NCBI GenBank assembly: GCA_951230915.1
Contig: OX579641.1
Coordinates: 15,788,254-15,852,253 of the forward strand
DNA length: 64,000 nucleotides
Direction of reading: 5' to 3'
Origin: Antitrichia curtipendula
Lineage: Eukaryota; Streptophyta; Bryopsida; Hypnales; Leucodontaceae
Shown here: in pieces, positions 1 to 52,689 of the stretch
Layout: the number at the start of each line of letters is the position of its first letter
Numbering within the stretch: position 1 is the stretch's first letter
Notes under the pieces: model-generated
Seen by the model: only the letters and a program-made list of their open reading frames with translations
Told to the model about the DNA's origin: nothing
The model's database searches: none
Program-made: the position numbers and the translations under genes

Positions 1-52
1 TCTGAAGTATGTGAAATGTTAAAGAAATTAGAATGAAGCAAAGCCAAGGATA

Positions 53-2930: not shown

Positions 2931-3313
2931 GACTCAATTAGATAGCAAGTGCTACCATTGATATGTCTCATTACCGCAAAATATGCATCCCTATCCACAG
3001 ACAAGTCTAAGTCTTGACAGATTCAATGAGATCAAAGCCTTCAAGCCTTCAAGAAATTTGAGAAAAGCCAGCAATTTCCAGAATACGCTTCCAGTCTGCA
3101 GTTGTTCTTTCTTATCCTCGACCTTGATAGAGAGCCAGCATTAAGATGTCTGAATTCAACGCTGCACCAGTTTTCGCAGCTGAGTTTCGTGAAAGCTCAA
3201 TCACATGCTCTCGTATGAGTACTTTGCCATTCTCTGGATCCGAAGAGCTTTGTGACAGTTCTTCAGGATTTGGATACACACTGACCTCATCCCCTCAGTC
3301 GTGCAGCACTGTG
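2931..3313 (-). pseudogene. duplicated last exon of the O-methyltransferase gene (fragment)
   Basis: On the minus strand this is a diverged tandem copy of the last exon and 3' flank of the neighbouring O-methyltransferase gene (matching about 3483-3860). Long blocks are nearly identical, for instance around the 'aagtctaagtcttgacag' word and the stretch encoding the C-terminal SDILMLTLFQG region. Frameshifts and substitutions break the frame, and no upstream exons accompany it. It stops abruptly at about 3313, where sequence related to the ctpA 3' end begins. A gene remnant, not expected to make protein. Confidence 0.75.
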
Positions 3314-3475
3314 CACTTTACACATTGCTCAAACTTCGCCATGAATGCAAACGTATCGTAAATAGACTAGGGCACACCTTGCTGAACGTGTAAAGACTGG
3401 GTGCGAGCTTGATCCAGCAGACTGCAAGCATGATGTCAATACAAAACTTTTCACTAAACCAAGAGGTGAGTGAAA
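3314..3475 (-). pseudogene. stray fragment of the ctpA 3' end
   Basis: This piece resembles the last coding bases and 3' flank of the ctpA gene at about 34037-34220, in the same orientation. Shared blocks include a 24-nt identity around 'cgccatgaatgcaaac', the word 'ctgggtgcgagctt' and the end block 'cactaaaccaagaggtga' (one difference). It is fused to the duplicated O-methyltransferase exon, so two unrelated genes 31 kb apart contribute to a 540-bp chimeric segment. No coding capacity. Confidence 0.65.
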
Positions 3476-3574
3476 TCCACCAAACCATGTGGACCTAGAT
3501 AGCGAACTCTTGCTACCATTGGTATAGATCTCTCATCACCGGGTAAATGCATCCATGTCCAACATACGGCAAGT

Positions 3575-6174
3575 CTAAGTCTTGACAGATTCAATGAGAT
3601 CTAAACCTTCAAGACTAAGAAACGAAATTTGAGAAAAGCCAGCAGCTTCCAGGAGACGCCTCCACTCTGCGGTTGTTCTTTCTCTTCCTTTTCCTTGAAA
3701 GAGAGTCAGCATTAAGATGTCTGAATTCAACGCTGCACCCGTTTTCGCAGCTGAGTTTCGGGAAGGCTGAATCACGTGATCACGGATGAGTACTTTGCCG
3801 TTCTGTGGAAGAGCTTTGTGACAGTTCTTCAGGATTTGGATGGACTCCTCGTCCCCCCAGTTGTGCAGCACTTGCTGTTGTTCAAGCCCAATTCAGATGA
3901 ATCTCAGAATGACACACAAGGTACGTACATCTAAAATCATCCGAATATTAAGCGTCTGAGTATGTGACTGTACATACTAAAAAATTTGTTGACCCTTTTC
4001 GGGCAATCCATTAGAAGAAGATGACAATGTAACATTAAACTGAGTTTTATGGACATTGTATTATAAAGAGACTCTGAACTTTCACAGTGCGTCGAGAATC
4101 TTCCCTATGTTGAAATTCTAATCTCGTGTGCAGACTGTGTACATCTTATGCAAGAATCTACAGTGACAAATCCTGACAAAAAGTTGCAATTAGCTGTGAT
4201 TACCTCGTACACATGTTGACCTGATACCACAGTGCCGGTAACAATTCAGTTCAGAATAAGTATATGGTACTCTGTGTGAGGAAGAAGTAAAGAGTACGCA
4301 TCAGAAATTGTTCTCTTAGTCCAGAAGTTGGAATGGAGTTAGGAATTGCACACCTGCAGAAGAATGACGTCTCCTGATGGAACAAACTCTAAGAAACTCC
4401 CAGGGACATGCTCAACACCTACAAATCCATTTCTGTTACTCATCGTCAAGTTACAAAACAAAACTGGTGTTCAAAAATTTGTGAGTGCCAGGATGCAATC
4501 AAGATAGACAAAGCTTGGACTGAAAAGGAATTTTTGTTTGACCTAAAAGAACGCTAGTTTTCTACAATCTTCTGGGTCCATCGACTGAAAACCTGTTCAA
4601 AAATTGAATGTGGAAAATGTGAATATGCAGCCAGAGTCTAAACAAAATGTGTTGGAGACTTGGTTGTAAATCTCCAAAAACCGTACTGCAGCTACCGAAA
4701 TAACAGAAACGAACATGCGATATACGTAGCTTCAACCAAATGGAAAATTTCGTTAAAATGGCGGTATTCCATATGCCATTTTTTCATTCGTTTCTAGCTC
4801 TAAAGTCTAGGACAGTTATAGATTTCAGACCGCACAGTCTAATCATGAAAGTGCCAAGTTTGTGGAATACCGCCATTCTAACGAAATGTTGGTTCCGAAT
4901 GCTAAGGGCCATCCCAACGATAATTGAAAACAGGTTAAGAACTTTAGTTCAAGTTCTTTGAACTTCAGTTCAAGTTCTTCAGTGCGATGCTTGCAGACTA
5001 TTCAGCGAGACCCACGTTTGAAATCAGATCACAAATCCAGGACACCCTACTTGGGAAGTCCACTCAAAACTGTTTACAATAGTATGAACTGTTTACATCC
5101 TGCTCAGTTGCCAAACTGCAGATTCAAGTCACACATTCAAACTACGCTGCAGTGGAAAAGTTCACAGTGAGTCGAGCGAGTCAACTGTGGCGGGGACAAG
5201 ATAAAAGTTGTAAGTGTGAAAGTAAAACTCACTCACCAGGAATTGAGGGAGCAGTAGCGATAGCTTGAGGCAAGTCGAAGTTTCGTCCTCGGATGTGAGG
5301 ATGCTCGGCCACGATCAAGGCCAACGCGCCACCCACACCGCCACCAACGTCTACCACGCAATGCACATTCTTGAACCCCTCGTAACATCTTGCAATCACA
5401 CTATTCATCAACTTGGAGGCACACCGCATGGCCGCGTTGAACGCTTCGTTGAAATCCGGTTTCAAGCTTCCGTAGCTCCATATGTCACTGCCGTTCGCAA
5501 GCTCGAACCCATTCGCATCCTCCTCGACAACTTCCCGGAGATGGTCGAATGGCCGGCACATTTCCGACCGTTGCACGAACACGGCGAACGGGCTTAAGTC
5601 GAATTCAGAGTTTGTGACGAGGAGCTTGGAGACTTCTGTGAGACCGTAACTGCAGTTCTTGCTTGTCACATGTCAAAAAATCTCCAATCAAAGAATCTGA
5701 ACATGTCAAGAAACTGGTACCCTCAAACCTCTTTATAGCCACCATCTCTACGATGTCCTTCCAGACTTTCCTGCACACTTGCTAACCCTGAATGTAACCT
5801 TGAATATCATATAGCTAGCCAAATCAGTAGATTCTTGAAATGAACGCATGATCACAAGATATGCAAAGTATTAGAGTTCAGCAGACGATTGTGAAGACTC
5901 ACTACCTGATGGGCTCGGAGTCTGATGCAGAGAAGATCCCCTTGTGGGCCAGAAGGCGAAGAATGCGTCCCAGTTTCTGAGCAGCGTCGTGAGACTTGCG
6001 AGGCAGCTGGTCTGCGATCTGCTGCGGTGTGAGAGACTCCCCCGGACCTGCTGCCGCCAGAATGTCAGGAATCTTGAGGTCCAGAGCCGCTTTGAACGAA
6101 TTGGGGTAAGCGTAAATGTAGTTGAGCTCCTGAAAGACGTAGAACGCCTCCACATCCTTGGGTCGCACCTCCAT
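3575..6174 (-). CDS. SAM-dependent O-methyltransferase, caffeate/flavonoid (COMT) type
   Basis: Four exons fit GT-AG junctions with matching phases: 6174-5906, 5649-5237, 4418-4354 and 3874-3575, giving 348 residues, normal for class II plant O-methyltransferases. Exon 1 holds the dimerisation domain (LPRKSHDAAQKLGRILRLLA). Exon 2 has the SAM-binding glycine motif VVDVGGGVGG, and exon 4 carries VLHNWGDEE, whose His is in the place of the catalytic base of the family. The ATG at 6174 (MEVRPKDVEAFY) gives a standard-length N-terminus. The enzyme should transfer methyl from S-adenosylmethionine to a phenolic hydroxyl in the cytosol; the substrate (caffeate, flavonoid or other) cannot be told from sequence. 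The last exon is duplicated just downstream. All motifs look intact. Confidence 0.88.
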
Positions 6175-15970: not shown

Positions 15971-16183
15971 AAGTGATGGAAACTTAGGTGTCGTGCCACT
16001 ATATTCAAACAATACCTGTAAAGATTACATATGAAGTTTGTGTTTTTTTATTTTGAATCTTTAGTTTATTAAATTGATCATTTTAAGAAATACTAATGTA
16101 CAAGTACTATACATTTTGCTTGAAGAAGAATACAACAAACATTAAATTTAACACTAAGGCTAACATAGTTTTGGTGAATTTGT

Positions 16184-16400
16184 TTGGAGCAATATGAAAT
16201 TGATAAGTTTTGGATCCATGAACAGGTGACTTGCACTTATACATCAAATAGATGTAAATTTCCATGTAGTACATGCATGTGTCCCGTAGAAGAATTAATT
16301 AATGTGCGAAGAACATTTGAGTACCGTACGGAGCCTACAATGAAACTAATATACAACCGAATGATGGCAGCACCTCCAACTAGGCGCACACTCATTTTGA
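16184..16400 (+). other. possible transposase fragment (Cys-rich)
   Basis: A plus-strand frame encodes a short segment with CKFPCSTCMCPVEELINV followed by RRTFEYRT. The pattern 'PCxxC(L/M)VPxEEL' recalls the Cys-rich region of CACTA/Tnp2-like or Plavaka-type transposases, where a Cys pair is followed by an RT motif. Only about 60 residues are visible and no other domain follows. A low-confidence relic call. Confidence 0.25.
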
Positions 16401-16412
16401 AGCAAAATTTTT

Positions 16413-16463
16413 TGCATACAAACCACCATCGTCACCACCAACAGGATCCGGTTTCCCATATTT
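16413..16463. repeat. second copy of a 50-bp segment also at 15577-15626
   Basis: 'gcatacaaaccaccatc' followed by 'tcaccaccaacagg' and 'ccggttt/ccccata' occurs here and at 15577-15626 with only a few differences. The flanks diverge, so this is a short local duplication. Confidence 0.6.
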
Positions 16464-17029
16464 CTAGTACTCTATATTTTATGAGAATTCATTCATTTCA
16501 GTTTTTAAATGGAGCTATCTTATATATAAATTTAGTGTCCAAATTTTTGTAAAACCCACATTTATTTAAAAAAAAATTCCTTCACAATATATATATATGG
16601 AGTGTATACAGTAGAACCAAGAACAATCAATTGAATTCAAGTGACACTGACCAACTGGCAATTTGAAAACCCTAAAGGCCAATAATTCATTGAATGGACA
16701 ATTGAAAATTTAAATACATTCTTATGAAGTCAATATTGGTTGGATGTTCATGAAATTTTGATAGAAGGTGTAAACATGTATTCCCTTAGTAGTTTGAATA
16801 TACTTTTATTTTTCTAATTGGATCCCCAAATGAAAAGTGAAGCTTCCAAAACTATTTTGGCAAACTAGGCAATTTGGGCATCTTTTGGATCATCTTTTGT
16901 GAAACTGTTCATAAGGTTTTGAGATTTGGCATTTATGTATCTATAAAATATGGCATACAATTGTTTAATAAAATTTGGTTCCCAAGTCACATTCTAAGAG
17001 GAGTCAAAATTTATTAGCTAGATGAGTGC

Positions 17030-17290
17030 GACTTCAAGAAAAAACATTGTCTTTGAACGTCGTCCATACTCTTATCTTGCAATTAATAATGTCGAAGTTT
17101 CTTAAGAAATTTGTACATATTCCATATGTTTTTTTCTATTTTTTTACCATTCGGATTTCAAATAAAAAATGTCCTCATCGCACAAGAAATTATAGAAAAA
17201 ATGACTTGTATATGGCACATGCACAATTCCTCCTCTCATTGCAAAATGATTTGAAGTACATCAGACTCCATATTTGCATTTGAATTTTTT
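17030..17290. repeat. fragment related to the inside of the TTAA-ended element at 53869-54831
   Basis: Reverse-complemented, this stretch matches about 54170-54370. The shared words are 'atttcttgtgc(a/g)atga' and 'attttttatttgaaa', then 'atccgaa(c/t)ggt'. It may be part of an old copy whose left end is near 16671, where 'ccctaaaggcc' resembles the family terminus. Ends are not clear. Confidence 0.45.
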
Positions 17291-17977
17291 GGTGAGTAAA
17301 CCTAATAACGTATTTTTATAAATGATCAAAGTCAACTTTTAGTGTAGAGAATTAAATTTTAGTCAAAAATGATTCAAAGTTTGCTTACCTTACTTTCCAT
17401 ATTTTAAAGAAAATCACACTTCAGAATTTATGATCTTATAACCCATATGATGAAATGGCCTAAGAAATTTCTATGCATTGCCTTAATTTAATGGTTCACT
17501 GTTATCCCATTGAGTTATTTTTTTAAATTAATTTTTTCTTTGAGACTGTGCATGAAAAAATGACAGTTTCAGATTTTCACTCTTCCAATACAATTTCTTC
17601 TGTTTATGGGTTAATAACAAATTAACCATTAAACACTTTAGAATCCCTATTGAAGCTATTATATGAACATTCCATCTAATAGTAGTTATTGAATAGATAT
17701 GGCTTTGAATATTGAATGTAAATAGACTATAAATTGTATCTTCATGTTGTATAATTTTTAGTTTTATGAACACGCTAAGGTATACCTCCCTACATGTATA
17801 ATGTGATAATTTGTGTCAATTGTGGTCAATGTCGAACAATTATAATTGCTTCTTTTGATAGAAACACTATTAATATTGTAGCACAATCTACATCAACTAT
17901 CATTGATTGTAGAGTCTACTGATTGTGTTCATTAATTTTAATGTCCACATGAAAGTATTTTTCTACATTTATCTTCA

Positions 17978-18007
17978 GGGTGAATGCAAGAAACACTTGT
18001 ACTATTT
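17978..18007 (+). repeat. left terminal inverted repeat of the large transposon
   Basis: Thirty bases identical to the reverse complement of 31856-31885. The match extends one more base outward (A at 17977, T at 31886), but the TTCA duplication is only consistent with the 30-bp boundary. Confidence 0.85.
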
Positions 18008-18845
18008 TGTGTCACATCTTCAAATCAAAAGTCGTTGTGTGGTATAAGTTTTAGGGAAATGATGCAAACAACTTGAAACTCATATCAAAATTGGGCGTAT
18101 ATGTGCCCAATGCGCTGCAATTTTTTGGATTTTTCCAAAATTCATTGTGGAGGAGAAAGTGAATTTCAAAAAAATGTCACAAATTCACTTTTGGAGGTTT
18201 CTAGTACTATGGAGTACCTTTTTTTGAAGTCATTGAAGTTGTAACTTGGCATGCTTGTTTATATGAGTAAATTCCAACTTCTCAGGGAAGGGATTTTGAA
18301 AATATTGCTTCTAGTGCCGCATGGAAGGCCCTAAAGTGTCATGACTTCCACTGTAATTTCGGAGAAACTGAGAAATCAAATTCAGTTTATCATTGTGCGG
18401 ATGCCCTCTTCAATGACTTAGGAGAAATGGCCATTTTTTTCCTTAATTTTTTAAAGTCATTCAGTATTTATGAAAAATCAAAATCTAAACTGGCATTTTC
18501 TACGAATTATGGCAGCCTGTGGCAGAACATAGTACTGGAGCGTAGTGAGTAGTAGTGCATAATAGTGGTGGGGGCCCACTTCAGATGGAAATCACCGACG
18601 TGTACAGTACACTGATAGTCGCTAATTTAATGAGAACCACTGTCATCGCCAATTCAATGCCGTCATTCACAGATCCATGCATAATCGCCGCCACTGCCTG
18701 ATCGGATTGTCTCTTAGGGTTCCTGGAATTTTGAACGGAATTGTTGCGTTTTGCTCGCGAGGAGGCCTCCGGGATTGTCACCGCTCTCATGGCCGGATTT
18801 GAAGTCGTCTTTCTTGAATTCTAATCGAGAATTCGTGCGCCGATC

Positions 18846-19631
18846 ATGGATGCTGGTCAATCTGTAGGCCGGGCAGGTCCACGGAAGAGAGCAGAAGCTG
18901 CTGCGATCAAAGACCAACGTCGAGAATGCAGGGAACGACAAAGTCGTCGCCGTGCTGCACACAGAGCGGCCACTGAGGCAGCGCCAACTCAGGCAGTGCG
19001 GGTAGTAGACGAGAACGTGCAAGATGGAAATGCCAGACTTCAGTGGGGTAGTATGAGGCACCGAAGTACTGTTTGGCGATCTTCTCAACGCATTGCAAAT
19101 TCCCTCTACCGATTGTTAGTAAGAATTGGAGATCTTACTTTGCGGGCTGATGTTTTGGACAAGGTCTTCACGAATCCACGTGTGCGCCCGTTGCTGCCGG
19201 AGTACTACCTGAGTCCAGAAGAAGCCAGAGCACAACGACAGATCCTGCAAAACATTGGAGCCGACTTGCGAGCATTGAAGGTGCCACACTCGTCTGGTAT
19301 GTTGGCACGCAAGCGTGCAATCCTCGAAGCAGTAGTCTCCGAACTGGACACAGACATATCGAACTTCCACAACATATTAGGTACGAGGAAGGAGAATTTG
19401 CTGGCCGCCGTGGAGCGGCTCCGATCTATCAATACTGAGGCCTCCTATTGCTATCCAGTTCCAACGCGCAAGAAAAGGGAAGGCGGGATTTGTGAAAAAA
19501 TGTAGGCCGCTGTTCTGCTGAGGTGGACTGAACAAACTAGAGTGAGCCCGCAGCGAAGGGACGTCAAACGAAAGCGCTTGGGACGTAATCTCTACGATAC
19601 CCATGCTGCGCATTTGCTTCTTGAAGGGCAG
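18846..19631 (+). CDS. first exon of the transposon's plus-strand gene, Arg-rich, with an in-frame TAG
   Basis: An open frame starts at ATG 18846 with a very basic segment (RECRERQSRRRAAHRAA) and a helical middle part (ILQNIGADLRALKVPHSSG). It meets TAG at 19503-19505. The same frame is open again for 42 codons (RWTEQTRVSPQRR, then LYDTHAAHLLLEGQ) up to a good donor site CAG|GTGTGT at 19631/19632. The stop therefore interrupts an otherwise continuous exon. The basic N-terminus may bind DNA, but I recognise no family. It probably belongs to the same gene as the exons from 21.2 to 23.4 kb, though the connecting splice was not resolved. Confidence 0.55.
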
Positions 19632-21199
19632 GTGTGTTCCAATCTTCTTTTCTAGCTTCGTTGTTTCCGTTTGGGTTTTGGGTTCTTCCTTTATGGGCAT
19701 GTTCTCTGTGGGTTCTTTTCTCCAATCATTCCGCTCCTATTGTCGAAAAAAAGTCTGAACGACAATACAGACTCAGAAATGTACTTTTTGCCCATTTCGA
19801 AGGGATAACTTCCTTGTTCGTCCACATTCACACCTTCCTCTCTTGGAGGATACAAGTCCAATAGTAAGATAGTTTCTGGCAGCTTCCATTGAGGGATTGT
19901 CGTTCCCGTCTACTTGTGATCCAGTTTGTCACTTCCACTTCGTTGCATTCCGTTCCATTTAGATATAATTTTGCAGCTTTTGAAAGTTCCATTGACATCT
20001 GATTCTCACATACCCTGCAGACGAGTACCGTTATTGTCGTGTACAATGCCTTGTACAATTTCATAGTCCTCATTGTCAGCTCTTCGTAGACGTCTGTATT
20101 GTTCACCTTCTTAGTGCATACAACTAATTCCTTACTGCAATTTGCTTACCACTCTCATTATATTGTGGGAGCTACAAGGTCATGCTCCTTTTGCATTGAT
20201 CTCATGGGTACACATTGGTCCCAAATAGTGCTGTTCAGAAAATCGGTGCAATGTACTATTCAAGTACTGTGCCGGGCTTCGCTCGGCACGTCAGTGCATC
20301 TGACTACAAAATGCATACATTCTAGTGTGCAGTTGTGTACTTCCAGTATTATAAAATACTTCATCCCTGCAGTCCATGAATGCGGCATGCCATGCATGAT
20401 ACTCCAAGAGTACTATGCCTTCCTGGCTGTTGTCTATAGTACCTCGTGTTTCCTGTTCTCAGGTCCTACGTATGTGTCTGTAGGTAGTGCACAGTTCATC
20501 AGTGCCCTCTGCATTGGGCTGTAGCTTCATAGTACTATTCGTTTGCTTCACGCATTGAGGCAACAACTATGACATATTGTTCCTGCATTGGGCTTCACTA
20601 TAGAGTACTACGTCCGCGTCCTCTATATTTCATTGAATGCTCAGGGCACTCGCTCTATACTATGCACAAGTCGAAGTGCGTGGTCTAGACTTCCAAACTC
20701 CTCAGAGTCCTAAGAAGGACTGAACTGTACTTTAGATATCCTGAAGACACAGGCCAATATCTTCGTGCCTACAGTAGCAACAGAAGAGTATTGTGGCCAC
20801 TGTTAGCTACGTCCAGTCCTCTCCGCGCTTGCTTCTCGTGCAAATAGGTTGGTACACTGTAATTCTCTTGAGTACTATGAAGTACTTCATGAGTCCCATT
20901 CAGTACTATGAGCTTCTACAAAGTATTATGAGTCAGGAGCAGTACTACTATTCACCCTCAACTGTCCTATACTGTGTACTAGTGGTCCTATACTGTTCTT
21001 CAGTAGTACTATGTACATCGAGTGCAAAGCTCCATCTTCAAGCTACGCAAATTGTTGTTCACTATGGTTGACATTATTCTACATGATGCAGATGCAGCTG
21101 TATGTTCGTTTTGTTGATGCACATCCACATTGCTCCATCTAGTGCCGATCTTTCTTCAAGCTCCGCCCTTTTTTCGTCATCAGATGCAGGGAGAGAAAT
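19632..21199 (+). other. long intron or intergenic stretch rich in AGTACT words
   Basis: No coding domain recognised. The sequence contains many AGTACT/GTACTG words, particularly at 20240-20500 and 20860-21010. Its position between the basic first exon and the transposase exons suggests an intron of about 1.5 kb, possibly with an unrecognised small exon. Confidence 0.45.
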
Positions 21200-23399
21200 G
21201 TGTGCTGCTGCTGCAGATACCATGTTCAAGTTATTTTCCTCCTTGAGGCCTTGAATGCATTCCGTGACCCTCATGGAGGTGCTCATGTTCTTTTCCTCTG
21301 TGATTGTCAGTGCATTGTCTGCAACGTTGACAATGGGGGAGTCTACAACGTTGGTAGCAACCGTTATGCAGGGGTGACAGCCTTGTGTGAAGACTTGCTA
21401 TGTCCCAAATCTGAGGGTGAAGAATTTCACCATCCAAAGTGCTTGCTGGGAACTTGTAGTAAGTGTGGTGTGCGTTTCTTCAAGGTATGCCCTCGTGAAC
21501 GGGTGACTGATGTTGCTCGAATGATTAAGTGGAAGCAGTTCCAGTACGAAGTTGTTGGAGTGTCAGCTGATGGTCGGCCAAAGAAGCGTATCAAAGAGGT
21601 TGAAATGATGACATCCTTTGACGAGTTCCTTGACTTCTTCTCGCCAACGGTGCAGCACTTCATTCGACATAATTTTATTGCTAAGTGGCAAAGTGACCAG
21701 GCAAAGCTTCTGCAGTCTTGCTTGCAAAGAGGGACCATTCTAACACACATTTATTTCTCTGAGAATTACACGTTTGAGGTTCAAAATGAAATACAGTCAA
21801 TGTATTACCACTCTGACCAGATTTCGATTTTGGTTCAAGTTACTTACTCTCCTCATGCTGGGGATGATGGGGAAGAGGATGCTTTGGAGTTGAGGAGAGA
21901 GACGCATTTCTTCATCTCCGACGACAAGACTCATGATAGCTCCTTCGCCCAGCATTGCCTCATGCTGCATTGGCGGTGGATGGTATCTAGGGGCCATTCT
22001 CCAAAAACTCATTATGTATACAGCGATGGAGGTGCTGCGCAGTTTAAAGGTTCCAAAGCTATGTACTTCGTTGCCAGGTAATGCTTCTTTTACTGCGCTC
22101 GTCACCACTCTTTGTACTGTCCTTTGCATCTAAGTACTCCTTAGTGGTGGCTAGTACATATGCGGACTCTCACGTACTGAGCTGCCTTATATTACATGAG
22201 ACCAATGGGTGTGGCCTTGCATGGACAAGGCCAGAGTCAGGTCTGCCCACCCCTTTTTCCACAGTCACATATGATGAACATGTCTACTGACTTTGTGATA
22301 ATTGCTTCTCTACAGGTACCTGTCACTTACCACAGGTTGCAAGATGCTATGGAGTTATTACGGTACAGGGCATGGGAAAGGTGAATGGGATGGGGCAAGA
22401 GCAGTCATCAAAAGGGCACTGCGGACGGAGCAGTTGTCCAACCCACACCGACGGCTTCAAAATGCAGCTGATTGTGTCTTATTTCTGGATGCAACCATGG
22501 CTGGACAAGTTCCTAGTCGCAATGGTGGAATGCGGTCTGCTCCTCTAAAATCCCCCATACTTCTCTTGGCTGCACAGAGCTTTTCTGTGATCCACGTGTG
22601 CAATTGGTGATGCGCTCCTGCTTGTGTTTGCAAATTCTATTAAAATATATCACTGTTGTCTTAATTGAATTGCCAAATATGCAGGTCCTATCGATATTTC
22701 CATCACATAGGACCTACTAATGTTGACCATGCTACTACGGATGCATGTGACGCGATTCCTAGCTCCTCAAAGTTCCACTCCATTTTCGCACCTGATCAGC
22801 ATGACCCGACGAAGTTGCTGGTTAGGCACTTCGCTTGTTTCTGTGGTCCCTGCTTGGAGGAAGACTTTGTGCGTTGCAAGAAGAAGGCCTACGTGAAGGC
22901 TTGGACTGCCATAAAAATTCAGCCACAAAATGCAAGACTTGCAGCCTTGCACATGATCGATGAGGAGGAGGATGACAGTTGGGAGTATGAGTACGATGGT
23001 GACTCCATGGCAGACTTAGTCCAACCGGGCGACAATTTTGCAGTTGCTGCGACGGACAATAATGATGAGGGTGTCCCCTTCTATATTCTGCAGTGCCAAG
23101 CTACAAAACATGTGGTAGAAGAAGATTTTGACTGTGTCTGGGGAGGGCACTTTCAAGCTGGGGACCATGTTATTTCTAGCACGTACTATCAAAAATGGGG
23201 ACGCAATGACTCCAACAACTATGTATACTTGCGACGCTCCAGGCTAGCATACATAGATTGCAATGCTGTTTTGGCGTGCAAATTCCAAATGGTTCCACGC
23301 CAGCATAGGATGAAAGGTGAAGACGCAGTATACAACCTTTCAGAGGAGGCTGTTGACGTTATTAACACAGCTCTAGAGAAACTAGGAACAGACATTTAG
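21200..23399 (+). CDS. transposase-like protein of the large transposon (probable DDE type)
   Basis: Three exons join in phase: about 21200-22077, 22316-22606 and 22685-23399. Intron ends are CCAG|GTAATG...TACAG|G and AATTG|GTGATG...GCAG|G. The product has an N-terminal Cys cluster (CDCQCIVC, CLLGTCSKCG), then FSENYTFEVQNEIQS, then YSDGGAAQFKG and TGHGKGEWDGARAVIKRA. This order resembles a DDE-type catalytic core seen in plant and animal transposon proteins. In relatives as I remember them the residue before FSENY is Asp; here it is Tyr (HIYFSENY), which would remove a catalytic acid. The C-terminal part (YILQCQATKHVV, then WGGHFQAGDHV) is a separate domain of unknown role. The true first base of exon 1 is uncertain. 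Assignment rests on motifs, without a database search. Confidence 0.65.
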
Positions 23400-24242
23400 A
23401 CATTCGGATGGCAAATTGTCACTTCCTTGTACTTCTACATGTACATAGCTCTTCATTTTGGTATATATTAAACATGCCTTTCAAAGTTGAACATGCATCA
23501 CTGTATGCCATCATCACTAAAGTGGGCCACCTGTTTTGTGCACACCCTTGCACTACTGTCATATGCAGTGTCGCTGTCACCATACGTTTGAACTTCATTC
23601 AGCGGGCTTGCACTGGAACAGTAGTAAAGTAATGTGTAAATTGTTTGAAGTACCCCAGCTCAAACACTTACAAAGAAAGGAACATCTGAAAAAACTCTTC
23701 ATTTTCAATGGCAAAATCCTTTCATTCCAACAAAAATATGTTGAACAAACCAATTCTAATTATTTCCTTCCACACACTACAAGAAATGCATGCACTGTAC
23801 CAGCTATAGGTAAAGCAAATTTAAATTCACAAATGCGTTGAACTTTACATTAATTATCATTGTCTTCAGCAATACATGGCATACGGATGCACATATTACA
23901 ATATGTACTACATACAAATAAAAAGTCGTGTACTTCTAATTGTTTATCTGAATAAGGAATACCAATTAAATGGATAGTCTCTCTCGAAGAACTGAACAAT
24001 GTACATAATGATATCTCTAGAGGGTATGTACCATACAGACTATAGATTTGCCACATACTCAATATACAGAGTCTGCCCTACTTACCAACTCCTGTTCATA
24101 GTACAAGAGAACAATGGACAGTACATGAGGCTGCTGCTCTGTAACCAACTAGTACTGGAGCTTGCAGTGAAGTACTGGGAGAGTACAGTGAGCTCCCTGT
24201 GTACATCCAAGATACAGTAGGGGTCCGGCTTCCATTAGACCA
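23400..24242. other. convergent intergenic region inside the transposon
   Basis: About 840 bp between the stop of the plus-strand gene and the end of the minus-strand SET gene, presumably holding both 3' ends. No further frame or element is supported. Confidence 0.5.
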
Positions 24243-27200
24243 TCACTGTCCTCTGCACAAAGTGCTGCCACAATTGCATTGAAATGGCAGACGATCATTT
24301 TTTGTAGTAGAGAACGTGCATCCATAATCCCATGTGTCATGTGAGCTCCTCACCCGCCACCACTTCTCTGGTTGTGAAGAACGCTACTTGGAGAAGAAGT
24401 ACTTAGTCAGCCCAAAGAAGTCATCCAGAAAAATTAATTATTGTCCTTGGATTCCCAATTCACTAGCGACATGACAGAAGTGCACAGAGGGTACTTACAT
24501 GGTACAAAGTTGGAATTCATTGCTCAATCCACACGGGAATATCCATCAAATTTGCATCCCCACATCTGCCGCATGATTGCACACATTGCATCAAAGAGTG
24601 AGTTGAAATCTCTAGGGATTCATTGAGAAGGTAGACTTCCAAAAGAAAATTCTGGAAAGAAGAAGTGTGCGCGATACTTGTTTCTAACCTATGATTCAGC
24701 CACCGAGAAACATTTGTGATGGCTGATGCATCTATAGAAAGCAGCACGTCATCCTCAAGAACCATTTCGGACTGCCAGTGTGCATCAAGAGCTAGACAGT
24801 ACTTGAGAGGCGTCTTACGTCGTACCAACTCAGCATTAGTAAGAATTTCTCCTCCATATTCAAAGACAAAGCACCCTTGTTCAAGCCTCTCTAACGTCCG
24901 AATGCCCCATCCCTTGAGCCCATTCACGTGAAAAACCTGAGGAAAACAGTTGAAGGCATGAGTCTTAAAATTAATTGAAAATCAAGAACCACTTCTAGGG
25001 ACACAGTAGTACTGCTGAGCAGTGCTGACCAGTACTTTTAGATGATTGTGCCAGTACTTGGTGGATTGCAAACAGTTCAGATGGCTCCGAGTTACAGTAC
25101 CTGTAACTGTTTTTGTAAACCACCCTGCACCACTCTATTTGTACAAAATGGAGCACATTGGCAACGCTCATAGCACTCCCGAATGTACTGTCGCTGAACA
25201 TGGCCTGTACAATTGCCATTCTTGAACTCAAAGCAGGAGCTTTTTCCGAGGCAGCGAATAAGCCCTCCGTTGTTCAAAGACAAAGACCTCCGATACTGTG
25301 AAGGCGGGGACAACGTCATCAGAAATATGCAAGGCTTGAAAGTTGACATTTTACCCAAACAACCTTGTGCTATACGGAAAAAAAGAAAGACATTGTTAAA
25401 ATAGTAAATAATGGATTAAGAAAGGAAGACCTCACGTAGTCTGATGTACAAGTTTACCTGCGTTATAAATTGGGGAAGTAGGCAACCAGCCACTGTATAG
25501 GCTGTGCCTCCACTGTTGTAGACGGAAGAGGAGTCTCCAACACTGTCAGAGAGAGTCACATCTGTTGTGCACAAGCAAAACATGTCCATATCACGTGCAG
25601 AAGCCAATGCTTCTGCAGTTGTGGACTCATGCAAGAGAGGAGTGCATACATAACTGTAGCACATATCCAATGACGACAAGGCTTCTGGTGAAGCATCCTC
25701 GTCCAATAGAATAGGAACATTTTCCATACCCCTTGCCATGTCATATGAAGACCACAGCTGCTCACCCTGTTCATAACAACAATTCACACATCTGACAAAA
25801 CATCCAACTGAATTGCGGTTTAACAAGTGGATAGTACCAATATATAATGGAGCTCCTTGTACCGGAGCAACTGTACAAGACTGTGGGAAGTCCCCTGGAC
25901 TGCCACCCTCTTTCCGTGACTTAGGGCCTGAGATCTTTCAAAGAGGGGCCCAATTTTTTGGACCACACAGCCCCTCTCAGGCCCACCATCTTTCTCATGT
26001 GTATGAGGCAACCCTCGACGTGGACCAGACGCCCAATGCTTCGTGGCCGACTCGCAGGTCCTGCCTAGTACTACTTTCTACCCACCTCCTTCTCAGGTAA
26101 AGCTCCTGCATCATTCGGGACTGTGGGAATGTCTGGAGTTTGAGCTCCGGCGCCAGCTCCAAACGGCCGTGGTCGCAACTGCCTTGTATTGCCTTCAGGT
26201 GGGCTCACTGACTTTGCTGCAAGTCGCGGGGGAACTTTCATTGCAAACCAATTGACAAGGCATAGTCCAGCAGGTGCAAGTTAGTCTTACGGCACATGTC
26301 CGTAAGAGTTGGACATGGAAAACTACAAATTACGTAGTGGGTGTGACAACTGCCTTGTACAACAATCTGAAATGCAAGTGTAGGATGTTCAAAGTGGCAG
26401 CCTAACACAACTGAGGGTGGCACTAGCACAACACCTTTCACAACACTCGAATCATGACGTCCCACACCTCGTGCATCGCGAATGATTGTGGGAGTCGTGA
26501 TGTCCCACGGATCTTCCAAAGTCTCCTGCCCGTCCTGGAAACTCAGAGTAGCTCCATTAGCAATTAATTCAAAGGACACCAAAAGTATATAGCAGTTGCA
26601 AAACATTGGACAACTTCAGTAACTGAGATGCAAGATGTGTATGCCAAGTGCATAGAAATGACGACAAATACATAGAGGGATGGATAGTAAAGCACAGTAC
26701 TCTTCGAAAAGTAGATTCAGTGGAGGAGGCAATTCAAGTGATTCAAACCTGAACTTGAAGAGAGGGCTCCATGTCTTCAACAGCAGTTTTGTCAGGGCTA
26801 TCCACGAAATCTAGTGAGCGGGCGTCCAACTCCCTTAGAATTTCATCTGTGTCATGTAGAGTTGTTTCATTGTCATCAGCCTTTGCTGAAGAGAAGTCCA
26901 ATGTGTTAGTCTCTAGAGTATTCGCAGGTGCCAACGAATCCACCACAGCTGTTGACTTCTGAGTGGATGAGGGACACTGGAGAGGTACTGGAGATGTTGA
27001 TGATGGAGTGGCACTCGTACAAGAGTGGTGCATGCTTGCAGCCATCGTGGATTCGTGGAGCACCTTGACGCAAAAGGGTTGGACGTCTCCTCACTACCAA
27101 TACTATTTTGCAACGGGACGACATCATGGAGGCCTTCGGTCTGTACCACTACATGGACTAGTGGATGCGCTTGTCCTTGACTGATGCACTTAGAGAGGGT

Positions 27201-27250
27201 GCTGTCCGAGGCGGATACACTAGGTGCCCCAGTCCCAACGGAGGCCAGAC
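24243..27250 (-). pseudogene. SUVR4-like histone H3K9 methyltransferase (pre-SET, SET, post-SET), damaged
   Basis: Exon-like blocks run down the minus strand. An acidic Ser/Thr-rich linker (27250-26743) is followed by an SUVR-type middle region (about 26570-26238). Pre-SET pieces (about 25779-25459, 25293-25103) carry CTGHVQRQYIRECYERCQC and CTNRVVQGG. The SET core (24936-24689) has KGWGIRTLERLEQG, FEYGGEILTNAEL and the SAM-pocket motif WLNHR. Next comes CGDANLMDIPVWIE (24565-24499), and a last block near 24387-24243 has FFTTREVVAGEELT, a broken WDYG and the post-SET CNCGSTLCRG. Splices at LQ|VFHVNG and NHR|CGDAN fit GT-AG rules. Lesions: an in-frame TGA at 24517-24519 and a 7-bp insertion (ACACATG) within GAGCTCACATGGGATTATGG at about 24331-24345. 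Intact SUVR4 proteins methylate H3K9 and silence transposons. Confidence 0.75.
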
Positions 27251-27492
27251 CTGTTGATTTCCAGAGAAATACCAAAATGTCAGCATAATACACCAATATA
27301 GTAAGAAATTCTTGTTGATGTCATAGCACAGGCAAACAGTTATTGAACTACTACGTATCAGTCATCAAAATGGCTGCCTATAGCATGAAGAGTACATGAT
27401 AGTAAAACTGTTCTGACATGCTATACTGGAAGTAGTTCTTGCAGTACGCTGACAGTATTGCGGGTGAATAGCTGAGTACTACTACAGGAGTA

Positions 27493-29623
27493 CTACAGTA
27501 CTATATTACTACTAACCAGTGACATGAAGTCCTGTCGGAGCCTGAGCAGCTGGAGTTCGTGTATGCAAATGTCATGGAGCTGCCATTGCAAGATCATCCA
27601 CACTTTGCCCATGGTTTCCTGCGCCGTCTTTAAAGTCCCAACTGCTGGACCACTCGGGATGCATCGGGCCACAATCTCCCATGGCGCATTGGCTGTGACT
27701 CTTAAACCAATGTGCGGCACACCATGGGTGGTAAACATGCTCACAACTGCAGAATAAAATATCCCGATGAGGAAAACCATAAAAACACAGAGAGCAACGG
27801 AGGGTGTGAAGCACAATGACCAAGGTCGCATCTATACAGTTGCCCTCCAACTCATTCAACTGTGGATGAGGGTGCAGCACTAGCCCTTCACCTCCCTGCA
27901 TCAAGTCATTCATATGCTCTTGAAGAGCTGCTTCCCGGGAGAGAAGTCTTTCCACCTTTGCAGTAACGTCATCCACACTTTTCTGGAGTTCTTCCTTTAC
28001 ATTGCTGAATGCCTTCACCTTCTTCACGTGCCCATCCATTACCTTCTGTAGCACTGCTGATCCACTGTCGTCGTCCATTTCCGTCATAGTTTCCTGCAGC
28101 TGCTGAATTCCCAGAAGTCTCGCTCTATGCTGGTCAGCCACTGCATCTGCTTTCTCTTTCAGCATCACAGAATTGGCCTGCATCCTCTCCAGTTCTTCAT
28201 GTACAGCATCTAGGAGACCTTTAACAGCATCCTTCCTGGAAACAATGGCACCCAAAGTGTTATGGACTGACCAAAGAGCATGCCAAAGAAGTAAACAAAT
28301 TCCGCGTTAGTGTTCCTCAAAACACAAAAGCTATGTAACCCCCTAGTGCAAAGCCTGAATAAAAAAATCTCCAATATATAAACTGAAAATAAATTTGAAG
28401 AGAAAGCCAATGACGTGGATAACGTATTTGTCATCATTCTCAGTGATTGTGATTAGTTTCAATTGCTGAAGAGACTGAATTTAAACATAAATAAAGGAAA
28501 GAAGACAAGAGGAGCAGAGGATATATGTGCCCAACGTTGATGTGCTGAGGTTTCCAGTACGTGTCAGTAGCCCAAAAGGCTTCCCATCACGTGCGCCGCT
28601 ACTATAGTCATTCACACTCTGGAACAGCTGCACTGTGGATTGCTTGGGGTCTTCAACCTCCAAGTACTTCATGAAGCCCTCCTTGGCTGCCAGCTCTGCA
28701 AATGGTACGTCCAACACATCTGCGAGGCGACTGAGCCACGTCCTCACTCGCCTAGCATATGATTTTCGCTGCCCCAAGTTAGTCTCAGCAGCGAAACCAA
28801 CCTAATTGATTTTCACCCCTTTTTTTGACAAAGTCCATCCCATAGCCAATTCCTTACCAATGTGAGTGCTGCTGTGGGGCTTTTGGTAGCATTGGCAGTA
28901 GAGTTTCTCCATCTCCTTCCGCAAAGTGGCAGTAAGCTTCTCACCAAGGAGGAAGCCATTTTGTCCTTTCTCCAACCCAAATAGCGCTTCAACATCTGCT
29001 AGCGGTACATCCTTTTCCATGTGAAGCCTATGCGGATTTAGACCATCCCGATCCAATTCACAGGAGGTGGCAAAAATGTCCTCTGACATTGGTGTAGGAG
29101 GTCGCTTGGATTCTTGGTTCAGCAAACACAGTTGCTTGCGGCAGTCCTCCTCACTGAATTGCCGTGCTTCTGCAGCAATCTTTTTCCCCTTTGTCAGGGT
29201 GGTAACACAGATGTCTTCAATGCTGTCATTGTCTGAGTCATCACCGCTTCTGGACTGTCCTTGAACATCTTCATCATCCGATGATTCTTGTGCCTTCTTC
29301 TTCTGTGTCCTCTTTACGGTAGATACTGCCTTCTTCTTGTTCGGGTTGTTGGAGACGCGCAACGATGAGGCTGCTGGTTTAGTTGGTCTCCTTTTCTTCT
29401 TGCTGCCACCTTCCCCAACAGTTCCTCCTGAGTCTAAACCACCTCTGTCTGCAGTGGACTGCACTTGCTGCTGGGCTGCACGTTTCTTCCCCTTCCTTCC
29501 GTAAGTTCGTTCTTGCAACTCCATGTCTTCGTCATCTCCAGCGGCAGCCTCATCAGCAGAAGCACTGACCACAGGAGCAGGAGGTCGTCTTTTTTCTGGG
29601 ATTGTACTCTTCATCTTTGCCAT
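27493..29623 (-). CDS. transposon accessory protein: basic N-terminus, coiled coil, Cys/His zinc finger
   Basis: Starts at ATG 29623 (MAKMKSTIPEKRRP) with a Lys-rich, nuclear-signal-like segment and a Ser/Asp-rich stretch. It continues to KKGVKIN, meets TAG at 28802-28804, and stays open in the same frame (VGFAAETNLGQRKSYARRV, then RLADVLDVPFAEL). A later exon from 28235 (acceptor TTTCCAG) encodes a long coiled coil (about residues LLDAVHEEL to LQEHMNDL) and a zinc finger: CSLCF, then CEHVYHPWCAAHWF, then CAMGDCGPMHPEW. Just after it the frame giving QLHDICIHELQLLRLRQ up to a donor at about 27520 is shifted, so a small intron or frameshift lies there. The splice from that donor to the acceptor at 27250 would join this protein to the SUVR-like part, making one long gene. 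Function unknown. Confidence 0.5.
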
Positions 29624-29679
29624 GTGGAACAGGAAGATAACCTACAGACATGGAGATTATATTATACAATGAGGACGAG

Positions 29680-29960
29680 GTAATGTAGTACAACTTTAGT
29701 ACAACTCATAGTACTACACAGTAGTAAATAGTACTTCCGAGGACTGTAATAGTACATGAGCCTAAGTAAACAGTACTTCTAATGACAACAGTAGTACTGC
29801 TACTGCAGTACTACTGCTAATAGAATCATTAGTACAACTCAGAAAAGCAAACGAACTCCTAAAGAAACGAACAAGTACTCATAGAGGAGGCTCGAGTACC
29901 GCGAGTAATACCTTTTAGCAAATGGGACTGCTAAGGTAAACAGTAGTACTGCTATAAAGA
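29680..29960. repeat. dense AGTAC/AGTACT cluster
   Basis: Twelve AGTAC words occur in about 260 bp (for example near 29710, 29730, 29773, 29794, 29807, 29874 and 29945), seven of them the palindrome AGTACT. Similar density is seen at 20860-21010, 27400-27510 and close to the right terminus (31795-31850). The cluster lies just upstream of the minus-strand start codon, so promoter or protein-binding roles are possible. Confidence 0.6.
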
Positions 29961-31855
29961 AGAAATACAACTCCTAAACAAGGGAACAATACTATAACTA
30001 ATTGTATGTGCAAATGGTATTGCTGAGTGCATGAATAGTACTGCGCAGTAAAGAACAGAACTGCTAGGTATAGGAATAGTGCATACGAATTAGCATGTGG
30101 AAAACAAACCCAATCCGGAAGCCTAGCAGAGCAAAATGGAAACAACACAGTACACAGCAGACATGTAGCCAGTACAAGTTGTGAGAATAAGTACCGCAAA
30201 TGTAGTATGTTTTAGGAAAACGTAGTGTACAGCAGTGCTCTGGCGTTTCTTGAGGACTCCAAGTACTATCCCTGTGTCTCTTCAAATCTGAACACACGAA
30301 ATGCCAATGGGTGAGGAGGCAGCATTACTAGTTGTATGCGGCAAGGAAAGCAGATAGTGCAACCAACAGAAGCATCATGCTGAGAAGAAGTTGGCAAGTA
30401 TTGCTGACTAACTATGTAGGCCAGAGGTAGTACTAATCTGTAAACATCCCTGACAAACGGCTTGTATAGGACATTGCCGTGTATTTCTGACCCAAAACCG
30501 ACTGAAAGTTTGCAATACATTTACCCTAAACCATGTACAATTCGGCCACGACAATGAAATTGGATAATGACGTCTTGTACACAAATGAAAACCTAACTAA
30601 ACTGCATTGACATGTAAGTTCTTTCAAGTGCACCGGTATCATAAGCAGCACATCCACATAGAACAGGGACTATGTTTCTATGACTCCAAATGTCCTGAGA
30701 ATTTCTTGTTACAGAGATCACGTACCTGCTAGACGATTTTAAAGAAAGGAACAGTTGTCACACTTCTAATCAGGGATGACGCCCTGTAGAAGTCAAAAGT
30801 TGGAAGGGTGTGGCCTGCGCTCACCTCTTCAAGGTCTGGAAGTAGTTTCCACTAAGAGAAATGGCCGCCACTGCCTGAACGACGCTCCACTGCTTTGATG
30901 CATGCATCCGTCGCCCTATACAGCCCTGTCAAACCCGACGATTTTACACCCGAAGCTCAGTTTTCAGACCTAGACAACAGGACGGTCATTGAGTAGCGTA
31001 CAGAACATGGCAAACTGTCACGACGTGAAAGCAAGTACGTGAAATGCTGAAAGTACCACTGTTTTGCCCTCCTACAACAAGAAAGAGAGCAGTCCCTTTC
31101 ACAAAAGAGGCAATGTTCTAGTTCACTTCATTCAGAAATCAGTCGCCGAACTTGAATCCGTTGCTCCTGCACACTACCGCCTTCGGATTCCTCGATTCTA
31201 ATCCTTTAAGCCACCCTTGCAAACATTTCCGCAAATACTGGTCCTAAACCCTAGAAATTAAAACAAAGGCGCAGTTCCACAGCTTACCGCAAGCCCGGTG
31301 ACGCAAGTGCAATCGCCTCGCAAGAACTGAATTCTCCTAACGCTTCAAGCTCCGCCCTTGCCGCACCTCCACAGGTCGCTACTCCGTCGGTCGCTCAACT
31401 CCTCCGAAATCGTCTGGCAGTACCCGAAATTGCCCGTCACATTTCTAACACCCAAATCGCAGGAGTGCGCCTTCCTTCCCGCGCCGCCCTCAACAGCCTT
31501 TTAGACTACAGTTTTCTTCAACGTACACTTGCCGCGCAACAAAAAAAAAAGCAAAGTGTTTGAAAAAATTGGCGCAATGGGCGCCATGAATCCACGCCAA
31601 CCAAACGAGAGAGACAACGGGTGGATGGATGATGAAAACTTCATCCATAAACCATCACCGCCATTATGAACGCCGATGACGAGGCAGTCAAATTGTCAGT
31701 TCAGTTTTTGAACGAATGAAAAGCAAACACGTGCCGTCTAGGCATTGCATCCCACATTAGATCAACGGTTCAGATTTCCTCTGCTGTGACATTCCTAGTA
31801 CTCACAGTACTCGTAGTACACGTAGTACTGGTCATGAAAAACACCAAAACGCAAC
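29961..31855. other. right subterminal region of the large transposon
   Basis: About 1.9 kb upstream of the minus-strand unit. It contains scattered AGTACT words, a GC-richer stretch at 31140-31500, and a final AGTACT/AGTAC cluster at 31797-31850 just inside the terminal repeat. It is likely to hold the promoter and 5' leader of the minus-strand gene. No reading frame is supported. Confidence 0.45.
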
Positions 31856-31885
31856 AAATAGTACAAGTGTTTCTTGCATTCACCC
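31856..31885 (-). repeat. right terminal inverted repeat of the large transposon
   Basis: Exact reverse complement of 17978-18007 and followed directly by TTCA, the same four bases that precede the left repeat. Confidence 0.85.
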
Positions 31886-32412
31886 TTCATTGTATTATTA
31901 AAAATTTGCACAACCCATAGTTGTTATGGTTGAATTATTAATAAAAATTTCAGTTACATGATGTTTTTACATAGCATAATTTGTATATAATAGACAGGAT
32001 AGCATTTCATCAACCCTATAGTAGCCCTACATATTATATGAAATTATTTCTTTTTGAATTGAATGAACTCTACTTTTTAACTCATGTAGTTTTCTAAAAA
32101 TAGATAATGATCTCCTCAATAACATTTTTGGTGAAAATTTAGACATAATTTTCTAGAGAATCATACAAAGATACTGAAATAGTACAATTTATATATTGCG
32201 TATTAGATGAGTTATGAATGTCATTGATATAATGAGTGAGATATGACAAATAGGTAATTGAAGCCGTGTGAAAACATTAGACTCTCTTTCAACCATAATA
32301 AATAGAAGGTGTTGATTTTGAAGCTAGAACATAATTGAAATTAGTTTTTGGGGTGCAACTTTAAATAATGGTGTCATAAAGAGGTTTAAGGTACACAGGG
32401 ATTCAATGTAAA
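31886..32412. other. AT-rich spacer
   Basis: About 530 bp with no gene or repeat recognised, between the right end of the large transposon and a TTAA-type element. Confidence 0.6.
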
Positions 32413-32950
32413 TTAACCTCTAAAGGCCCAAGGCCATTTTTTTGACAAAAAACAAAGAAAACTGTCATTTCTTCAATGTTTGCAAAAATAAAATAAAATT
32501 TTAGATCTTAACCACAAGATCTTGTACTTTCCTTATTTGAGATCATGTGATGAAAATGTCATGAAGTTTGACCATACAAATTGAGAGACATGTGCATTCA
32601 AAGTTGAAAAAACAAGTTTTTTTAACACTAGACTGCAATTTCAGATGACTTTGATCGTCACTTGTAGGAAAAATTTGCACTACAGAATTTGAATTAAAAA
32701 TTTATTGTATTGGAGAATAGAGTTGGAAGTCTAGGAAATTAATTTCAAAAAACAAAAACTTCGTCTTCATACTTAAAAAAATTGTTAAGTAGAAGTAGTT
32801 CCAAGATTGAAAAAAAATAGATTGTTAATAGCTCTTAGATGGAATTGAAGTACAATAATCCCAACGGTGAGATTGTTCTATTAAGCAAACTTAATTTTTT
32901 CAAACAATTTTTACTGAAAAATTGTGAAAATTGCATTCAGAAATGAATCC
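32413..32950. mobile_element. TTAA-ended element, copy 3, right end lost
   Basis: Begins TTAACCTCTAAAGGCCC and matches the copy at 10527-11452 in order over its left half. It breaks off near 32950 and is followed by GCAATACTG-type repeats, with no matching right terminus. Probably truncated by that repeat. Confidence 0.6.
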
Positions 32951-32999
32951 TATGAGGGGAAAATGGGCCTATGTGAAGATTAATTTTATTGAAAAAATT

Positions 33000-33555
33000 A
33001 TTGCAATACTGAAAGTCTGAAACTGTACAATAATAACATAGTAATCATTTAGAAACTTATATTACAACAGTACCCACCTGTGTCAGATTCAAAGTTAATA
33101 CATACAAAAAACAAGCACTGCTTGCAATTCAGCTTGTACACAAATAATTTAATAAATATATAAATATATTTATTAACAAACTGATATGCAACAGTATTGC
33201 AACAATCATGAATCATTAAAATTTGTTGCAGTACTGCAACAAAAACAATTCAATATTGTTTCAATTGCAATGCAAAACTGAAAAACAACCCTTAGCAATA
33301 CAATTTCAACAATGTTTCAATACGGAAAAATCTAGTCCCAATTTCAGTACTGCGACATGTTTGCTAATATAAAAGGGTACGTTCTATTCAATTGCAATAT
33401 ATCTGCAATAACTCCTTAAAAGCAATACTGCAACAGTATGTATTGTTTCAGTACTGTTTCAGTATTGAAATAGTTCACACTTTGTATCGCAAACAAAAGT
33501 GATTGTAACAGTACTGAAACAATATTGTTTCAATTGTTTTCATTTTCCTGATGTA
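33000..33555. repeat. GCAGTACTGCAACA-type repeat block
   Basis: A run of variants of 'tgcaacagtattgcaaca' and 'gtactgtttcagtattgaaa', ending in TTTTCCTGATG near 33553 like the other members of the family. Highly self-complementary and without a reading frame. Confidence 0.55.
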
Positions 33556-34196
33556 TCACATATCCATAATTCTATTTTCATCCACAATCTAGCGATTTCA
33601 TTGAAGATCTCTTTGTAATTTGAAGTTTTCTGGTGATTTGCCACCCTTTCAGTACTATTTGTGTTCCAAGGCCGTGTTGCAGGGCCTATTATTTTGGTGC
33701 AAATGGCCGCCAAATCACAGAAAAGAAAACGCTGCTTAGGAAATAGTAGAAGAGACAGGTTAGAGTAACCAGATGGACTGTTACGTAAATGGGAGACACA
33801 TATTAGGGCGTCAGGATTTCTTTCTTACATTCAATGAGTGAGACGAGATCAATCCATTTCGGAGCTCAAAGTGATGCTTCAGAGCTGTATCCATGAAAAC
33901 ACAAAACGATTGAAATGCAGCGCTATATCAGTGTGAAACGAGCAGCCCGTACATAAGAGGGAACTTTGGGGAATCAATTGCTAGATATCCATTAGGACAT
34001 CACCTTCAACAAATCAAGAATAAGATTACAACTGAGCACTTTGCTCATCGCTTAAACCTTCGCCATGAATGCAAACGTATCATGAACAGATGAGGGGCAC
34101 GACACAATCCCGCACGCTTGGCTGCGCATGTCAATACTGGGTGCGAGCTTCAGCAAGAAAGATGATAAGGAACTGGGAGCATTCTGCCAACACAAA

Positions 34197-46971: not shown

Positions 46972-47156
46972 CCACTAGAAGAAACCTGTGTTTTTTTTGA
47001 CGTCCAGAATTTGAACGTTCACTTTTTTGGACATCAAACATAACATTAGGATGCTAGTTTTGATGTCAAAACTAGCATCCTAATGTTATGTTTGATGTTC
47101 AAAAAAGTGAATGTCCAAATTTTGAACGTAAAAAAGAACACAGGTTTCTTCTAGTG
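46972..47156. mobile_element. CACTA-type foldback MITE
   Basis: The 185-bp element begins CACTAGAAGAAACCTGTG and ends with its inverse CACAGGTTTCTTCTAGTG. Nearly the whole length folds into one hairpin around 'gttttgatgtcaaaac'. It is flanked on both sides by CTC (46969-46971 and 47157-47159), matching the 3-bp duplication of CACTA elements. The terminus is close to the CACTACAAGAAA end known from plant En/Spm elements. It has no coding capacity and could give a hairpin RNA if transcribed. Confidence 0.88.
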
Positions 47157-49540: not shown

Positions 49541-49634
49541 TACAAGAAACACAAACTAACACCTAGACATTGAACTTGCGAATCCGTGAACTCGGCCAAT
49601 GAAGTTCATCATCGAGAATTGCAAGTTCCCGTAC

Positions 49635-52658: not shown

Positions 52659-52689
52659 GTTTTCGGACCCCTCTCAATGCTCACTCAAA

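Follow-up and report, generated by a model that had tools for sequence, protein, structure and literature searches.

Within the 64,000-nucleotide stretch of Antitrichia curtipendula DNA analysed here (contig OX579641.1; the window), a 13,908-bp element at 17978-31885 carries three genes between its terminal inverted repeats (TIRs): a transposase gene on the + strand, and a SUVR-type SET gene and a RING-like gene on the - strand (Table 1). The TIR arms (GGGTGAATGCAAGAAACACTTGTACTATTT) are perfect over 30/30 bp and are flanked on both sides by TTCA, just as the original prediction described them, and the inverted repeat reaches a length of 31 when one letter of each TTCA is counted, A on the left and T on the right. 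Besides the TIRs, nine inverted pairs were found within the element (17-30 nt, 72-89%), the TIR pair being the only perfect one, while a 22-base piece of the TIR end had no other occurrence within the window. The G+C content of the element is 45%, versus 38% in the remaining window, and its border flanks are AT-rich, with 29% G+C at 16001-18000 and 31% at 32001-34000 (2-kb stretches).

DDE transposases move DNA by cut-and-paste. With its inverted ends, its target-site duplication (TSD) and a DDE/D RNase H-like transposase inside, the element is best read as one cut-and-paste DNA transposon with 30-bp TIRs and a 4-bp TSD. It is probably of the Sola type, a plausible membership based on the TSD length, which agrees with that given for Sola2 (passages of PMC3627910), and on the listing of Sola1 for Physcomitrella (table in PMC9033089). 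The likeness to Sola covers TIRs, a 4-bp TSD and presence in plants, compared by description only; the passages of PMC3627910 and PMC9033089 mention no SUVR or RING cargo for Sola.

The transposase-like gene of the original prediction proved to be of the DDE type, with 77 relatives found by database search and an integrase-type fold for one of them. The candidate triad D221/D306/D348 is present in 31, 33 and 31 of the 34 relatives aligned for catalytic-residue conservation (14 of the 77 were used in another alignment), the exceptions being gaps and a single H at 348. The fold assignment depends on a second structure aligner and not on Foldseek, which returned no PDB match at E <= 0.001 and one weak viral match. 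Pfam gave nothing for the window transposase open reading frames (ORFs) or for the relative P0002, NCBIfam gave nothing above cut-off for four transposase relatives, and none of the 28 pattern matches from scanning viral contigs with the transposase alignment was confirmed as a relative. The reading frame is interrupted by in-frame TAG stops in exon 1 (19503-19505) and exon 2 (21140-21142, where P0003 has Q), and the first conserved Asp is replaced by Tyr (21752-21754). On these lesions, the present copy is predicted to be unable to produce its transposase.

Scanning genome contigs with the transposase yielded one locus, L001, a 31% identical piece at a contig end (4744-5362) with no SUVR or RING match. 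This 5.4-kb contig is binned in an 'uncultured Trichormus' metagenome-assembled genome, and by eye the frames adjoining the transposase piece look like those of a LINE (long interspersed nuclear element). The contig is probably a eukaryotic contamination of a cyanobacterial bin, with a fern host perhaps being the source.

The conserved exons of the SUVR gene run from 25766 to 24244 on the - strand. Its SET core and pre-SET gave 12 database matches with 36-52% identity, 11 of which have WIYLD and one of which is named SUVR2; the query scored residues 205-550 alone, the tentative exons at 27045-26086 lying outside it. The nearest solved structures are SUV39H2, G9a/GLP and SETMAR, and the NHRC and EELT motifs and the post-SET CxC are present. 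The gene is thus of the SUVR type and, by kinship, a predicted histone H3 lysine 9 (H3K9) methyltransferase. Its frame is broken twice, by a 1-nt deletion and a 7-bp tandem duplication, and the present copy is accordingly predicted to be unable to produce a complete SUVR protein. Because the transposase and SUVR genes are both broken, this copy should be able neither to modify chromatin nor to transpose, which removes the earlier suggestion that the element modifies its own chromatin as far as the present copy is concerned. A Pfam scan of 9 ORFs detected no WIYLD (PF10440), which short or unseen exons could still hold; by precomputed annotation, PF10440 lies on 15 of the 20 distinct SET database matches.

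To place the SET core, we used two trees of 129 columns, one with 17 rows and one with 16 rows without P0097, which was left out for its long branch (2.27 in the first tree). The first tree held 16 of the 20 distinct SET matches, leaving out P0081, P0084, P0092 and P0093. The window SET core groups with P0088, P0094, P0095 and P0096 (support 89/97 in the first tree, 96/98.9 in the second), apart from 11 comparison SUVRs whose sources include angiosperms and the moss Ceratodon, and its own branch is long (1.3). Orthology to SUVR4 is not supported by these trees, which held no named SUVR4. The name SUVR4 in the original prediction was therefore too specific, since the trees tie the SET to no one SUVR type and WIYLD was absent from the scanned ORFs; the SET and post-SET parts of that prediction stood, and the pre-SET is degenerate.

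The four relatives are encoded on contigs of 960-8592 bases and show unrelated residues directly after NHR, where the window gene has an intron, a change that is expected of genomic reading frames. P0094, P0095 and P0096, all from short contigs, are SUVR-like SET exons that have diverged, with altered cysteines in P0096, and may represent a multi-copy lineage. P0088 retains NHRC, EELTWDYG, the post-SET cysteines and 12 of the 13 pre-SET cysteine positions, so the SUVR lineage need not be inactive. The viral contigs scanned with the SUVR-clade alignment gave 28 pattern matches, none of them confirmed as a relative.

The original prediction, right about the presence of the first two genes, missed the third, as well as the decay and the dispersed motif described below. 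This third gene (- strand, 29634 to about 27572) encodes a lysine-rich N-terminus, a coiled coil and a C-terminal RING-like finger. The finger matches Pfam zf-RING_2 with an E of 4.2e-5 (24.2 bits, under the 27.3 cut-off), and its best PDB match is RING finger protein 24 (E 9e-4). A single shared query, in which the RING part was joined to the SUVR core and three SUVRs were added, gave 9 proteins bearing SET, pre-SET or WIYLD domains and no RING relative; as scoring was limited to the 7994 candidates with the most words in common, this is weak evidence of absence.

Table 1. Parts of the element with their coordinates in the window, followed by the TAGTACT matches of each region.
Feature	Position	Strand	Basis or remark
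Left TSD, TTCA	17974..17977	.	Letters read; equals 31886-31889
Left 30-bp TIR	17978..18007	+	100% complementary to right arm; GTACTA within inner end
Transposase exon 1, basic N-terminal part	18847..19631	+	ORF; aligned to P0045, P0046 across stop; end LLLEGQ 19631
Transposase intron 1, TAGTACT-rich	19632..21085	+	9 TAGTACT matches; GTACT 17 per kb
Transposase exon 2, first part of RNase H-like core	21086..22077	+	Comparison with relatives
Transposase exon 3, GHGKGEWDGA block	22316..22530	+	Donor ~22530 set from relatives
Transposase exon 4, C-terminal part	22685..23399	+	ORF; relatives
SUVR last exon, SET end and post-SET	24244..24387	-	7-bp tandem duplication (~24331-24343), frame broken at EELT/WDYG
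SUVR exon (CGDANLMDIPVWIEQ)	24499..24566	-	1-nt deletion ~24520
SUVR SET exon to SRWLNH	24689..24936	-	Pfam SET E 2e-6
SUVR pre-SET second half	25101..25379	-	7/7 cysteine positions kept; uncertain as to phase and 5' boundary
SUVR exon, degenerate pre-SET first half	25458..25766	-	1/6 cysteine positions kept
Possible SUVR N-terminal exon (tentative)	26086..26238	-	Open frame only
Possible SUVR N-terminal exon (tentative)	26377..26534	-	Open frame only
Possible SUVR first exon (tentative), ATG at 27045	26749..27045	-	Open frame only
Last exon of RING gene, encoding coiled coil and RING-like finger	27570..28232	-	zf-RING_2, PDB RING fingers
RING gene middle exon (tentative boundaries)	28560..28750	-	Tentative
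First exon of RING gene (ATG at 29634), lysine-rich N-terminus	28845..29634	-	ORF
Right 30-bp TIR	31856..31885	-	Inverted-repeat search
Right TSD, TTCA	31886..31889	.	Equals left copy
TAGTACT, upstream of transposase			3 matches
TAGTACT, transposase intron 1			9 matches
TAGTACT, transposase introns 2-3			0 matches
TAGTACT, between gene ends			1 match
TAGTACT, SUVR introns			3 matches
TAGTACT, upstream of SUVR			3 matches
TAGTACT, RING introns			0 matches
TAGTACT, upstream of RING gene	29635..31855		12 matches; GTACT 17 per kb
TAGTACT, exons			1 match
TAGTACT, neighbouring transposon-like region			0 matches

Taken over the whole element, AGTACTA/TAGTACT has 32 matches against a Markov expectation of 1.5, corresponding to 26 sites because six palindromic TAGTACTA sites count twice; 25 of the sites lie outside exons and one in an exon, the exon/intron borders being those of our own gene models. 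The 50 kb of flanks hold 5 matches. A short motif enriched in the non-coding parts of an element is the pattern known for VANDAL and its VANC proteins, and it is found here as well. The introns of the SUVR gene (1146 bp) contain 15 copies of the core GTACT versus a Markov mean of 2.4, a count reached in 0/200 simulations. At 13 GTACT per kb, their density falls within the 7-17 measured in six further non-coding stretches of the element, compared to 2.5 in exons, 2.2 in the flanks and 1.75 in a neighbouring transposon-like region. The background of GTACT is not zero, since it exceeds its own Markov expectation also in the flanks (109 vs 60) and the exons (15 vs 6). As its introns carry the signature of the element at about the density of the element, the SUVR gene has probably long been resident in it, and we regard this shared signature as the best evidence that the gene belongs there. 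The SUVR5 motif, TACTAGTA, was also considered as the dispersed motif and rejected, with 0 occurrences in the element and 2 in the flanks.

The position of the SET gene inside the TIRs, the sole perfect inverted pair and above all the motif in the SUVR introns support the claim of the original prediction that a single TIR element carries this gene as cargo. We consider it likely that the locus is one Sola-type transposon with transposase, SUVR and RING-like cargo, which inserted in an AT-rich plant region and is now a relic. Past selection on the SUVR protein is suggested by 278 codons in three blocks that are free of stops, where neutral drift to 41% identity from the same open blocks gave a mean of 8.95 stops (200 runs, minimum 2), a comparison biased by the blocks having been picked as open frames.

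Besides that bias, several observations weigh against this account. The whole case rests on one decayed copy. The pre-SET is degenerate, with 8 of 13 cysteine positions kept and five lost (positions common to at least two of three relatives; 1/6 in the first half, 7/7 in the last), leaving an incomplete zinc cluster, and canonical splice sites do not preserve the phase across the junction 25458->25379, which makes this junction a possible third lesion of the gene. The RING introns (421 bp) are devoid of any GTACT, and AGTACTA is absent both from them and from transposase introns 2-3 (392 bp). By an approximately unbiased (AU) test, neither a sister relationship between the window SET and the 11 SUVRs (p 0.446) nor its position inside a moss-like group (p 0.184) is rejected. 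Finally, a joint action of the RING and SUVR proteins is conjecture.

Mechanistically, in intact ancestors of the element, the transposase (or else the basic RING protein) would have bound the TAGTACT motif, whose core is also found in the TIR end, and the proteins of the element would have met on TAGTACT-rich DNA. There, the SUVR enzyme would have deposited or perturbed H3K9 methylation in the chromatin of the element itself, setting the level of silencing, perhaps aided by the RING protein through ubiquitination. As to the direction of this effect, self-directed methylation by an active enzyme is our first, still tentative choice; interference with host silencing, ranked after it, is a more doubtful one, and the absence of any function, ranked last, seems rather unlikely. 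A stronger form of the same mechanism, in which a RING ligase and a ubiquitin-responsive H3K9 methyltransferase form a self-contained module addressed by TAGTACT, allowing the element to tune its own silencing in convergence with VANDAL, also strikes us as rather unlikely.

Interference could have taken the form of an anti-silencing decoy, a SUVR-like protein that competes with the host SUVRs and shields the element, an outcome that VANC reaches in a different way. There is precedent for dispersed motifs in the anti-silencing of transposons, and the loss of pre-SET cysteines together with the lack of WIYLD in the ORFs scanned would suit an inactive competitor. The apparent relative P0088 keeps the catalytic motifs, however, so the inactivity may be private to the decayed copy, and we give the decoy a low probability, similar to that of the self-contained module.

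Next in order, and unlikely in our view, comes non-functional capture (Pack-type transduplication), where a copy of a host SUVR gene never served the element and has since become a pseudogene. The two frame breaks and five lost cysteine positions, the long end branch of the SET (1.3) and a host kinship compatible with the AU test are what such an origin would leave behind. Yet the SUVR gene is not alone in its decay, the transposase also being broken (two stops and a D-to-Y change); the SUVR introns are retained and bear the element motif, pointing to long residence, and the three SUVR blocks are free of stops despite a divergence to about 41% identity.

That a host SUVR gene lies between TIRs belonging to different elements, or within a composite, without being cargo is very unlikely: TIRs alone cannot prove joint movement of their interior, least of all from a single copy, but the TIRs are identical and perfect with matching TTCA outside, no further perfect end-like pair exists within the element, the SUVR introns share an element-wide motif that the flanks do not, and WIYLD is missing from the scanned ORFs whereas most database matches have it. 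Hardly credible is an intact element whose lesions are sequencing errors, since single-base and short indels are typical of errors but the two in-frame TAG stops and the D-to-Y change are substitutions, and five cysteine positions are lost.

Among known systems, the working model for the element is VANDAL21 (Hiun) of Arabidopsis, a Mutator-like element. It carries the genes VANA, VANB and VANC, and VANC21 binds YAGTATTAY in the non-coding regions of VANDAL21, introns included, where DNA methylation is lost (passages of PMC5735166). Both elements thus have several genes and a short motif dispersed in non-coding DNA; VANC, in contrast, counteracts silencing in a sequence-specific manner, and the passages of PMC5735166 make no mention of a SET gene. 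Plant SUVR4 and SUVR2 have a SET core of the same kind, and SUVR4 further methylates H3K9me1 and binds ubiquitin in vitro through its WIYLD (passages of PMC7218100), whereas the gene of the element has a damaged pre-SET and lacks WIYLD in the ORFs scanned.

The original prediction knew of no described element class with this combination, which has to be corrected, as DNA transposons carrying SET genes are on record in oomycetes (passages of PMC12730594 and PMC4067079). HarbingerS and MuDR elements of Phytophthora carry SET genes, as cited in PMC12730594, and proto-Helentron-Pi is a Helentron with a Clr4-like SET gene (PMC4067079). These are likewise DNA transposons bearing a SET histone methyltransferase gene, but their hosts are oomycetes, their transposase classes are others and the Helentron SET resembles Clr4, not plant SUVR. 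Fungal DNA transposons with TET/JBP also captured a host epigenetic enzyme (PMC12730594), although these act on DNA methylation, live in fungi and belong to other superfamilies. SETMAR (Metnase) likewise has a SET domain beside a transposase, in the reverse direction, being a primate host gene fused to the domesticated Hsmar1 transposase. According to these sources, then, SET genes on DNA transposons are already known from oomycetes and the capture of host enzymes more widely. No plant transposon with a SUVR gene appeared among the titles and abstract openings surveyed (subscription papers and Repbase Reports lie outside the survey), and the words 'histone' and 'methyltransferase' are absent from the text of a 2026 review on how plant transposons capture genes. 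Within this literature, a Sola-like element of a plant that combines a SUVR gene with a RING gene and a dispersed motif is apparently new.

Writers of histone marks usually serve the host against transposons, and the element described here may at one time have controlled the state of its own chromatin. A plant transposon family in which selection had maintained a working H3K9 methyltransferase would offer a natural test of self-silencing versus tuning versus jamming, with the dispersed motif as a concrete handle for testing a role in silencing. Because the oomycete precedents show capture elsewhere, a plant case would make SET capture a recurrent strategy.

Elsewhere in the window, the neighbouring transposon-like region (49500-52930, - strand) has reading frames with frame breaks and no AGTACTA; by eye, these frames look like a hAT-type transposase, Pfam at 1e-3 giving no family for three of the ORFs. 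A nearly perfect fold-back at 46973-47156 (91-nt arms, 92% complementary, 2 nt apart) resembles a miniature inverted-repeat transposable element. An O-methyltransferase domain (PF00891, E 7.2e-18) lies at 5229-5672 (- strand), and beside this gene a direct repeat (2950-3314 / 3511-3875, 83%) is perhaps a tandem gene duplication. Together with the relatives of the SUVR gene, the O-methyltransferase gene makes a plant host likely. A Complex1_LYR protein (PF05347, E 3.5e-10) is encoded at 61941-62327 (- strand), and a 390-codon open frame at 59683-60855 (+ strand), with no Pfam match at 1e-3, looks by eye like a phytol/farnesol kinase. Close to the end of the window, 63729-63833 is a tandem array of ~5.2 copies of a 20-bp unit.

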